Shown here: in pieces, positions 5,921 to 8,013 of the stretch
Position numbering within the stretch: the first letter of the stretch is position 1
How the letters are laid out: each line of letters starts with the position of its first letter
Assembly (NCBI GenBank): GCA_015232825.1
Contig: JADFYY010000010.1
Location: 1-36,738, forward strand
Origin: Magnetococcales bacterium
Lineage (GTDB): Bacteria > Pseudomonadota > Magnetococcia > Magnetococcales > Magnetaquicoccaceae
DNA length: 36,738 nucleotides
Reading direction: 5' to 3'
Program-made: the position numbers and the translations under genes
The notes under the pieces: generated by a model
Told to the model about the DNA's origin: nothing
Seen by the model: the letters and a program-made list of their open reading frames with translations, nothing else
Database searches by the model: none

Positions 5921-6214
5921 TCAATCAATCCATGCTTTTTTCAAGTCTCGCGCACTATGGATAATTCTGAAAACCTCAATGCCTGTTTTGAGTGCTTTAT
6001 ACAAAATTAAATAATCCCCGATAGGGTGACCACGGATTCCTATTTGTAACCCTGGATAAACTTTGCCCATTCTGGGTTGACTGGCCAACCGTTCAAGAGT
6101 GCGATCCAATGATAAAACCCAAGCATCTGCATTGTGGATATGATCCATGGCAATATATTGCCAGATCGCTTCAACATCCTTGTAAAATCTGGGCTGGAAA
6201 ACTAAGTGTGACAA
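5921..6214 (-). CDS. ParE/RelE-family toxin
   Basis: 97 aa; RFYKDVEAIWQYIA...RLASQPRMGKVYPGLQIGIRGHPIGDYLILYK...IEVFRIIHSARD is a typical ParE layout. Confidence 0.85.
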   Translation of the reverse strand: MSHLVFQPRFYKDVEAIWQYIAMDHIHNADAWVLSLDRTLERLASQPRMGKVYPGLQIGIRGHPIGDYLILYKALKTGIEVFRIIHSARDLKKAWID

Positions 6215-6405
6215 GGTGTGCCCTGCTTTTTTGCCCAGTCGCTATGTAATCTTTGTTTGATCTCTTGCAAATTCCATTCTAATGGTGGTTCATTATCGGC
6301 TTCCGCTTCTGCTACGGCTTGACGCAGGTATTCTATGTATTCAGGATCATGCATCTCATCTTCAAGGATGATTGACATGGACATGGCGTTACCCCTTATG
6401 AACAA
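6202..6405 (-). CDS. Cognate antitoxin-like small protein upstream of the ParE-like toxin
   Basis: 67-aa acidic ORF overlapping the toxin start by 13 bp; Met8 or Met10 are alternative starts. Confidence 0.6.
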   Translation of the reverse strand: MFIRGNAMSMSIILEDEMHDPEYIEYLRQAVAEAEADNEPPLEWNLQEIKQRLHSDWAKKQGTPCHT

Positions 6406-6432: not shown

Positions 6433-6759
6433 TTACAGCTTTTCAGCCCATTCACCAATCAAGGGGAATTTCCAGGCTCGTCCGACCAGAACCGAGAGGA
6501 TGCCGATGATGGAGAGGATCAGGCAGGCCATGGAGGAAAATTTGAAAAACAGTTTGCCAAAGCCGGGCATGAGCAAGGTGTATACGGCCAAAACCTCCCA
6601 CATCCACAAAATAGCCCCCTGGCGGGCGTGAAAACGGACATAGGTGTCGTCTCGACTGGTCATCATGGGGATCAGGCAAAGCACTCCCATATAGCTAAAC
6701 AAAGCCATGGACCGAGAGAAGAGACCGGCTTTGCGTTGCAGAATAATCGATTGGCTCAT
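6433..6759 (-). CDS. mamF: MamF/MmsF-like (DUF4870/Tic20-like) small membrane protein, candidate magnetosome protein
   Basis: 108 aa; SYMGVLCLIPMMTSRDDTYVRFHARQGAILWMWEVLAVYTLLMPGFGKLFFKFSSMACLILSIIGILSVLVGRAWKFPLIGEWAEKL closely resembles the remembered Magnetospirillum MamF pattern ([33 protein letters not shown]...PGIGKWLFGFSSM); Shine-Dalgarno AAAGGAG upstream. Confidence 0.75.
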   Translation of the reverse strand: MSQSIILQRKAGLFSRSMALFSYMGVLCLIPMMTSRDDTYVRFHARQGAILWMWEVLAVYTLLMPGFGKLFFKFSSMACLILSIIGILSVLVGRAWKFPLIGEWAEKL

Positions 6760-6792
6760 GGCTTATGCATCTCCTTTCGCTTGAGGCTAAGA

Positions 6793-8013
6793 TCAATGGG
6801 TGGTAATTTTAATGGAGCCTGGATTGGTGGATGGACGGGCCACACAGGGGGTAACGCGGGTGATGCATCCAGCCAGTCCGGTCACGATGGTCAATGTGCC
6901 AATGACGATGTCGCCGACTCCTGTGACCACGTTCCTCGCGCTGGCGCGTACCAACGCACCCATTCGGTTGGTCATTTGCGCGGTCTCTTTCATCGGGGTC
7001 GGGTCGGGTGCTGCCACTGACCAAACCGGATGCAAGATGACCTCCACCGCATCGGCTAGCATGTTTATCACACCGGGCAGAAGATTTTCCACGGGGATTG
7101 ACTGGTAAATCTGCACAGCGGTCTCCTCTTGAGGCATGGGAGACTCTACAGACTTAGTGACAACGGCTTCTTCCAGGGGTAAGGATTCTGGCAGAATCTC
7201 ATCGGCCAAAGGGGAAAAATCCATGGGTATGGGTTCTTCAATGGTTGGCGTCTCCAGTGGAGGGGGTTCTAAGGGCTCAGGAGTACCGATTTCTTCATTT
7301 ATTATGAAAGGGTTGATTCTTATGGGTGCGGGTCGCTCTTCTTGAGGTGGTTCTGTGGAAATGGGTTCCTGATCGACAACCGGTTCCTGGAGAATTGGTG
7401 CGGTCTCTTCGGGAATTGGGTCGGGTTCGAGGGTTATCTCTTCTGGGAGGTCGGGAGTCGGTTCATCCAGTGTGTTGATCTCTGGTGCAGGCAGGGCCGG
7501 GAAGGTCTCTTCGCCGAGCAGCCATGGTTGATCGGTTCCAAAGGCACGTTTCACTAGATCCGCATAGACCCGCTGTCTGGCTGCTGGTCGGGATGCCGTG
7601 TTCATGACAGGAGAGAGATCTTCTGGGGCTATTACTGCCGGGAGTTTTTCTTCAACCTTTGCCTCAATCTCGTCTTCAACTTTTTCTTCAGTGATTGCCG
7701 GTAGATCCATTGCAGGTGGCTCTGGTTCTGGCTCAGGCTCTGGATCAGGGTTTGCCTCCTGGATTGGGTCATCGACTAAGCGTGTGGTCTTTTCTGGAAG
7801 GGGAGCCGGGGTAATTCGGTCAAGGGTGGTCCATGGATGGGGTCGATCATCGGATGATGGAAGGATCTCCGTCAGAAAACCGGTCTCCGACCAATTCATG
7901 GGAGGTAGGGAGAGCGGGGCAAACACGGTTGCGGAATTGTCAAACCAGGAAGAGGAAACGTTCCGTCTGGTGGTGGAATTGGTTACTCTCCATGGGTCGG
8001 CCTTTTTGAGCAT
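6793..8013 (-). CDS. Acidic Pro/Glu-rich hypothetical protein with a hydrophobic Gly-containing C-terminal segment
   Basis: 406 aa; PDPEPEPEPEPP and many EEP/PEE repeats; C-terminal VVTGVGDIVIGTLTIVTGLAG; Shine-Dalgarno GAGGAAGGA upstream; ends 33 bp before the mamF-like gene on the same strand. Confidence 0.8.
   Translation of the reverse strand: MLKKADPWRVTNSTTRRNVSSSWFDNSATVFAPLSLPPMNWSETGFLTEILPSSDDRPHPWTTLDRITPAPLPEKTTRLVDDPIQEANPDPEPEPEPEPPAMDLPAITEEKVEDEIEAKVEEKLPAVIAPEDLSPVMNTASRPAARQRVYADLVKRAFGTDQPWLLGEETFPALPAPEINTLDEPTPDLPEEITLEPDPIPEETAPILQEPVVDQEPISTEPPQEERPAPIRINPFIINEEIGTPEPLEPPPLETPTIEEPIPMDFSPLADEILPESLPLEEAVVTKSVESPMPQEETAVQIYQSIPVENLLPGVINMLADAVEVILHPVWSVAAPDPTPMKETAQMTNRMGALVRASARNVVTGVGDIVIGTLTIVTGLAGCITRVTPCVARPSTNPGSIKITTH
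7729..7757 (-). repeat. Short low-complexity tract encoding (PE)n/DPEPEPEPEP
   Basis: ggctctggttctggctcaggctctggatc, approximate 6-bp periodicity inside the Pro/Glu-rich ORF. Confidence 0.6.

Follow-up and report, generated by a model that had tools for sequence, protein, structure and literature searches.

A candidate satellite magnetosome module that pairs a putative MamJ-type adaptor with a MamF-like protein in a Magnetococcales bacterium

Two adjacent genes of magnetosome type were found in a Magnetococcales bacterium outside the main mam cluster of its genome. One encodes a 108-residue MamF-like protein (MFP), here called P0001, and the other encodes a 406-residue acidic protein, P0002, whose C terminus is homologous to that of proteins encoded just upstream of mamK. 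By analogy with Magnetospirillum gryphiswaldense, we lean toward the view that the two genes form a satellite magnetosome module, wherein P0002 would be a MamJ-type adaptor and P0001 its own inserter. The main interest of the pair lies in the family that it exposes, which offers a candidate MamJ in the cocci, where this protein has been reported missing.

Results

The gene pair and its genomic setting

The window analyzed here, a stretch of 36,738 bp, is the entire contig C11 of a 3.03-Mb genome assembly that comprises 270 contigs and is 77% complete. The features under discussion are as follows.

5921 to 6405, minus strand: ParE/RelE-like toxin (5921 to 6214) and an overlapping small upstream ORF (6202 to 6405)
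6433 to 6759, minus strand: P0001, 108-aa MamF-like protein of the MFP/HOTT (DUF4870) family with a predicted Tic20-like fold, assigned from searches, tree, and predicted fold
6616 to 6657, minus strand: MFP charged loop SRDDTYVRFHARQG, residues 35 to 48 of P0001, the most conserved stretch of the family
6760 to 6792, minus strand: intergenic gap of 33 bp with an AAGGAG ribosome-binding site
6793 to 8013, minus strand: P0002, 406-aa acidic Pro/Glu-rich protein, putative MamJ-type magnetosome adaptor paralogue (C-terminal domain HMM, E = 6e-13)
6859 to 6921, minus strand: motif 2 of P0002, Gly-rich hydrophobic helix GVGDIVIGTLTIVTGLAGCIT, residues 365 to 385, predicted MFP cargo signal and membrane anchor
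7039 to 7098, minus strand: motif 1 of P0002, IPVENLLPGVINMLADAVE, residues 306 to 325, counterpart of the published MamJ C-terminal motif
7114 to 7791, minus strand: acidic Pro/Glu-rich low-complexity arm of P0002, residues 75 to 300 (24% D+E, 19% P, pI 4.05)
7537 to 7587, minus strand: conserved middle block of P0002, residues 143 to 159, PAARQRVYADLVKRAFG
7939 to 8013, minus strand: N-terminal block of P0002, residues 1 to 25, ADPWRVTNS..NVSSSW, with the congener counterpart ADRWRIAKSxxGQNVFSSWLDT

As described in the first-pass annotation, the 108-aa ORF lies 33 bp downstream of the 406-aa ORF on the same strand. Shine-Dalgarno-like sequences precede both (AAGGAG ahead of the 108-aa ORF and AAGGA ahead of the 406-aa ORF), and, judging from the sequence, the two genes are probably co-transcribed. 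Both ORFs were called as coding by a hexamer model trained on long ORFs from the host genome itself, with the start of the 108-aa ORF misplaced by the model. The pair sits between rsmI and yraN, and the ParE/RelE-like toxin gene and its small companion ORF just downstream are outside the pair. Consistent with the initial placement of these genes outside or at the edge of a magnetosome island, a tblastn search with the genome's own mam set found no mam genes in the window besides those for P0001 and P0002. The sole mamK found in the host genome is on contig C234, and P0002 has no mamK adjacent to it.

The main mam cluster of the host genome

The host genome is that of a magnetotactic bacterium because it carries a mam cluster on contig C234 (locus L015), a cluster whose existence elsewhere in the genome the first-pass annotation had presupposed. 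Placed in the rnfH-truA flank, the cluster reads Mms6/MamG-like gene, mamF, mamH, mamI, mamE, mamJ-like gene, mamK, and mamF, followed by mamL, mamQ, mamS, mamT, a mamD-like gene, an 89-aa gene, and mmsF. Note that the names from mamH to mamT were given by sequence features and gene order, with those of mamE, mamT, and the MFPs backed by domain or alignment hits. Magnetochrome domains above the Pfam cut-off occur in the host genome only on C234, and a search with the 108-aa protein recovered three more MamF-like genes, all of which are on this contig.

Within L015 (10031 to 11079), mamL is directly followed by mamQ, and the contig has no mamM, N, O, P, A, or B; in genome G025 these genes stand between mamL and mamQ. 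As the host genome is 77% complete, the gap may reflect loss, relocation, or an assembly error. In addition, the 89-aa protein encoded directly upstream of mmsF (L015, 13278 to 13547) consists almost wholly of motif 2, the Gly-rich part of the MamJ-type domain described below.

P0001 is a MamF-like protein

P0001 belongs to the MFPs of the MamF/HOTT/Tic20 superfamily. With the MamF whose gene adjoins mamK on C234 it shares 66% identity (E = 1.9e-48), and its match to Pfam DUF4870 is weak (E = 6e-4; 20.2 bits, under the cut-off of 25), which upholds the earlier assignment of this ORF as MamF-like rather than as a generic DUF4870 protein. Neither NCBIfam nor Pfam provided a magnetosome model for P0001. 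Its closest relatives are the MFPs encoded beside mamK, and in a tree it falls inside the mamK-adjacent MFP clade (bootstrap/SH-aLRT of 100/99), separate from the MmsF-type copies. Among 399 Pseudomonadota genomes searched, matches to P0001 were found in 46 of the 48 Magnetococcia, a comparison class that includes Ca. Magnetaquicoccus inordinatus UR-1 of the same family, and in 3 of the 351 others. Magnetochrome domains occur in all three of these other genomes and in both Magnetococcia that gave no match, and thus relatives of P0001 are indeed uncommon in non-magnetotactic bacteria.

The AlphaFold model of P0001 (pLDDT 84.7) presents a re-entrant-like helix, a charged loop at about residues 35 to 48, and two long helices, with helices predicted at residues 13 to 21, 25 to 34, 39 to 63, and 68 to 91. 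The best two PDB fold matches are Tic20 from the Chlamydomonas TOC-TIC complex (7vcf_W and 7xzi_B; probabilities of 1.00 and 0.99, E values of only 0.075 and 0.16, and a TM-score of 0.64 over the query), and no meaningful match emerged when PDB sequences were searched with a profile made from the MFP alignment (best E = 0.04). MamF-like proteins have been described as distant Tic20 homologues (PMC11628618), and the predicted fold of P0001 reproduces this kinship.

A recent origin of P0001 as a copy of its own genome's mamF was neither supported nor rejected by the AU test (p = 0.33). That P0001 shares a single origin with the satellite MamFs found in genomes G025 and G026 was weakly rejected (AU p = 0.04), and satellite MamFs therefore probably arose at least twice.

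The C terminus of P0002 matches that of proteins encoded upstream of mamK

P0002 is acidic overall (17% D+E, 16% P, pI 4.2), and its final 106 residues form a basic, hydrophobic stretch (pI 8.05, GRAVY +0.41). No family for P0002 was found in NCBIfam or Pfam, and structure prediction for its C terminus was of low confidence (pLDDT 52). Residues 244 to 393 align with the protein encoded between mamE and mamK in the same genome (31% identity, E = 2.9e-9). In many relatives, the proteins encoded just upstream of mamK carry a two-part C-terminal domain, wherein motif 1 has the consensus PVE-x-L-x-x-G-[IVL]-x-N-x-L-G-D (more loosely, PVExLxxGxxNxLxD) and motif 2 is a Gly-rich hydrophobic stretch. 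We define the domain as motif 1 with the Gly-rich motif 2 behind it, both located no more than about 110 residues from the C terminus. When an HMM was built from 23 C termini encoded upstream of mamK, with the host genome excluded, the C terminus of P0002 scored 50 bits compared to a maximum of 8.3 over about 1,900 composition-preserving shuffles. Each half of the domain also exceeded its own shuffles (15.8 versus 6.4 and 30.4 versus 11.2), and motifs 1 and 2 were matched in the correct order. The Gly-rich helix of P0002, GDIVIGTLTIVTGLAGCIT, has 4 Gly per 19-aa window and a GRAVY of 1.6, a value within the range of 1.3 to 1.6 published for the Gly-rich helices of MamJ, MamD, and Mms5 (PMC11628618), although its Gly share is lower than the 37.9% reported for MamJ.

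Magnetospirillum MamJ proteins carry the motifs VPVEX4GXFX2AXSA near the C terminus and DXWX2LLEXSPWS near the N terminus (PMC2818848). Compared to the former, the P0002 segment IPVENLLPGVINMLADA has P-V-E, G, and the final A correctly spaced, with I in place of V and I in place of F; other Magnetococcia proteins read VPVExLGxGIFNALGD at motif 1. The strict C-terminal pattern was matched by none of the ORFs searched. Relaxing it to PVE-x4-G-x-[FYIVL] gave 29 distinct ORF contexts across the loci analyzed, and nearly all of these are MamJ-type proteins. An alphaproteobacterium (L234) also has the relaxed pattern, in a 227-aa ORF that precedes mamK. The N-terminal motif is absent from P0002 save for D-P-W. 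In the MamJ encoded on C234, E-G-S-P-W is present and the middle block reads ADLVRCAF.

These comparisons indicate that P0002 is related to MamJ by homology that goes beyond composition. The first-pass annotation had regarded P0002 as a compositional analogue of MamJ, and the link to MamJ stands, but the restriction to composition was too cautious given that the C terminus is homologous to proteins encoded upstream of mamK. By its sequence, P0002 is classed as a paralogue with the Magnetococcia MamJ-type C-terminal domain; it is not filed as a strict MamJ because the published N-terminal motif and an adjacent mamK are both absent. Descent shared with Magnetospirillum MamJ, for which the published motif served as a proxy, is suggested by motif 1, the Gly-rich helix, the acidic arm, and the gene position.

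Distribution of the MamJ-type domain

A class-wide profile of nine rows, P0002 and the C234 MamJ among them, detected the domain in 44 of the 48 Magnetococcia and in all 27 near-complete genomes (E = 1.7e-29 for P0002, which the profile contains). The host genome has the domain in P0002, in the C234 MamJ, and in the 89-aa protein beside mmsF. For 59 of the 78 domain matches, mamK lies within 2.5 kb, and the domain is also encoded upstream of mamK in two Thiotrichales genomes (E of about 1e-26). This distribution conflicts with the absence of MamJ from cocci as published in 2010, 2019, and 2023. In these papers, Magnetococcus MC-1 is reported to have no MamJ (PMC2818848), none was found in Ca. 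Etaproteobacteria (PMC6783814), and the protein is described as missing beyond the magnetospirilla before a query confined to the termini brought up a diverged case in MV-1 (PMC10653835). One of these three papers calls the protein that links MamK to magnetosomes in cocci unclear. We found no reports of MamJ in Magnetococcia in the open-licence papers searched.

We see an even chance that MamJ is present in essentially all Magnetococcia as a fast-evolving family recognizable only by the two-part C-terminal domain, encoded mostly between mamE and mamK, and that it has spread to satellite loci as ready-made pairs in which an adaptor comes with its own Tic20-like inserter, the pair in the window included.

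Variants of the domain were also observed. In genus g2 (L058, L061, and L062), the MamJ-type protein encoded upstream of mamK stops right after motif 1 (VPVEKxFSGISNALGDxVGSVVGR) and has no Gly-rich helix, yet MamF is retained beside mamK. Elsewhere, proteins of about 107 to 152 aa with motif 1 alone are encoded near an extra mamK and are possible mini-adaptors (L090, 2671 to 3021; L092, 1104 to 1457; L093, 2621 to 2950; L094, 1047 to 1505; L096, 1069 to 1494; L097, 2837 to 3160; L098, 2067 to 2408).

The rsmI-yraN locus in congeners

Most other genera have no gene between rsmI and yraN. In five other genomes of the host's own genus, an acidic minus-strand gene lies between them in the same place and orientation as the gene for P0002, and the proteins encoded there have N-terminal, middle, and motif-1 blocks homologous to those of P0002. 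The N-terminal part of P0002 is confined to this genus, and a P0002-family profile that includes P0002 matched 6 of 48 genomes, all of the genus. The presence of an acidic gene at the same place in congeners implies that the adaptor-like gene is old at rsmI-yraN. We considered P0002 as a simple inserted copy of its own genome's mamJ and rejected this origin, given that its N-terminal and middle blocks are orthologous to those of the congener gene at the same place.

In the congener proteins, motif 1 is weak, the Gly-rich helix is absent, and no MFP gene is adjacent; G033 retains only an 85-aa remnant. A MamF neighbor and a Gly-rich tail at rsmI-yraN are known only from the host genome. Either an ancestral pair was stripped down in the congeners, or both MamF and the tail were gained in the host lineage.

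The rsmI-yraN interval is also a recurrent insertion site: in the window it contains the ParE/RelE-like toxin gene with its small ORF, and congener G030 has a VapBC-like pair there (L135, 10949 to 11589). At other loci of congeners (L142, 8287 to 15595; also L145, L147, and L149), a second mamK is followed by ZorA1-like, CHAD-domain, and ZorB1-like genes, an arrangement in which an actin-like filament gene adjoins a MotAB-like motor pair. The second mamK is 75 to 82% identical to the mamK of the host's C234 in three of these loci and 67% identical in L149. The ZorA1-like gene encodes about 790 to 1,245 aa (PADLOC E = 5.6e-58), the ZorB1-like gene matches with E = 4e-55, and no other Zorya genes were seen beside the second mamK. 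In L142, L145, and L147, this locus occupies the rnfH-truA site, where the host genome has its mam cluster. Finally, L154 (5861 to 6664; G000:C88) holds an orphan cation-diffusion-facilitator gene with 45% full-length identity to the MamB of G023, located outside a mam cluster among unrelated neighbors.

Recurrence of the pairing

A MamJ-type gene together with an MFP gene, and without a nearby mamK, recurs in genomes G013, G016, G001, G007, and G026. Housekeeping genes flank a MamD-MmsF-MamJ array in G013, and G016 has the order MamD, MamF, a 115-aa protein, and a MamJ domain. The pair is on a small contig in G001 and at the end of the main cluster in G007. In G026, a 370-aa Pro-rich paralogue of the genome's own MamJ, which has motif 1 only and scores under the class-wide threshold, is followed by a MamF copy. 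More generally, a gene encoding a Gly-rich C-terminal helix lies at most two genes upstream of 24 of 47 MFP genes with readable upstream neighbors, as compared to 69 of 752 other genes (odds ratio of 10). Note that the Fisher p of 4e-12 for this enrichment is overstated because related genomes and neighbors within the same cluster were treated as independent. In the host genome, all four MFP genes have such a neighbor.

Discussion

Proposed function of the pair

In M. gryphiswaldense, MFPs are needed to target MamJ, MamD, and Mms5, all of which have Gly-rich C-terminal membrane helices, to the magnetosome membrane, and loss of the three MamF-like proteins depletes this membrane of MamJ 44-fold, of MamD 84-fold, and of Mms5 12-fold (PMC11628618). 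Insertion of MamJ requires its Gly-rich C-terminal helix, and this region interacts with MmsF and MmxF (PMC11628618). The pair in the window matches the two partner types, namely an MFP and a protein with a Gly-rich tail. Extrapolating from these experiments, we propose that P0001, as a small Tic20-like membrane protein, would recognize the Gly-rich hydrophobic tail of P0002 and insert it into the magnetosome membrane, leaving the acidic Pro/Glu-rich arm in the cytosol. The arm or the N-terminal blocks of P0002 may then contact MamK filaments, and magnetosomes would thereby be held to the actin-like skeleton or placed along it. The pair would thus supplement the mamJ-mamK-mamF set of the main cluster with an extra adaptor and its own inserter. 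One caution for P0001 as the inserter is that it sits in the mamK-adjacent MFP group, whereas M. gryphiswaldense MamJ is targeted by MmsF and MmxF and not by MamF itself (PMC11628618).

Alternative explanations

The pair might instead be a satellite duplicate that contributes little or nothing by itself, produced when a mamJ-mamK-mamF fragment was copied, mamK was lost, and the remainder began to diverge or decay. We judge this unlikely, though it is the strongest of the alternatives. The gene order of the main cluster is mamJ-mamK-mamF, lone MamF copies exist on two G025 contigs, and the congener gene at rsmI-yraN is short and lacks the Gly-rich helix, with only the remnant left in G033. However, both frames in the window are intact and have kept their ribosome-binding sites and the conserved residues of the family, and this integrity persists despite divergence to 66% identity for MamF and about 30% for the MamJ-type protein. 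The acidic gene has moreover been retained in at least six genomes of the genus, and loss of mamK alone leaves unexplained why the same pairing is found in other genera, in one case with MamD added.

Rather less probable is a role for P0002 in crystal shaping, with its acidic arm inside the magnetosome on the mineral and P0001 targeting it as MFPs target MamD and Mms5. The first-pass annotation had likewise raised mineral binding, for which we found no support. Acidic composition would suit such a protein, the crystal-size proteins MamD and Mms5 are MFP targets (PMC11628618), and some of the other satellite pairs come with MamD-type genes; but the C terminus of P0002 matches proteins encoded next to mamK rather than MamD or Mms6, and the acidic region of MamJ is dispensable for chain formation (PMC12748827). 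Least probable, and to us quite doubtful, is that P0002 is a genus-specific acidic protein unconnected with magnetosomes, whose Gly-rich tail arose by convergence and whose MamF neighbor is there by chance. The genus-restricted N-terminal part and the congener gene, which has neither the Gly-rich helix nor an adjoining MFP gene, would fit this account. It is countered by the correct order of both C-terminal motifs and their scores above shuffles of the same composition, and by the resemblance of motif 1 both in the congener proteins (VEALLPGVxxALADAL) and in P0002 (VENLLPGVINMLADAV) to VENLLPGVVNLLGDMV, which belongs to a 71-aa G013 protein detected by the MamJ model with E = 9e-9. Chance adjacency to an MFP gene is also unlikely at about three copies per genome, and it would need repeating.

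Read as a satellite module, the pair adds to the evidence that magnetosome genes may work outside the main cluster, and the adjacency of a putative adaptor gene and a Tic20-like gene offers a small natural test case for MFP insertion via a Gly-rich tail. The domain itself supplies one named candidate for the MamK-magnetosome linker per coccus genome.

Comparison with known systems

P0001 resembles MamF, MmsF, and MmxF of M. gryphiswaldense (PMC11628618), to which it was likened via published descriptions, in length, in the charged loop SRDDxYVxFHARQG, in helix order, in the predicted Tic20-like fold, and in restriction to magnetotactic bacteria. It differs in the setting of its gene, which is not part of the main mam cluster and follows an adaptor-like gene after 33 bp. 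P0002 shares with Magnetospirillum MamJ (along with LimJ and the MamJ-like protein of AMB-1, and Mg-1g50 of MV-1) an acidic repetitive arm, the C-terminal [IV]PVE-x4-G motif, and a Gly-rich hydrophobic C-terminal helix, and its paralogue in the same genome is encoded between mamE and mamK, where Magnetospirillum has mamJ. It differs from MamJ in having no adjacent mamK and no N-terminal SPWS motif, in its low similarity beyond the C-terminal domain, and in its distance from the main cluster.

The magnetotaxis islet of M. magneticum AMB-1 (PMC2818848) likewise holds extra mamJ-like and mamF-like paralogues outside the magnetosome island. However, the islet extends over some 22 kb, in which seven mam-like genes, mamK, mamE, mamL, mamQ, and mamD among them, are scattered together with many transposases, whereas the window has two adjacent mam-type genes between housekeeping genes on a 36.7-kb contig. 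A further counterpart within the family is maq1 of Ca. Magnetaquicoccus inordinatus UR-1, a gene between mamE and mamK that its authors proposed as a candidate for the role of MamJ from position alone (PMC6783814). On the UR-1 contig (L198), the ORF at the place of maq1 carries the two-part C-terminal domain. That gene resides in the main cluster beside mamK, whereas P0002 is encoded by a separate copy beside an MFP gene.
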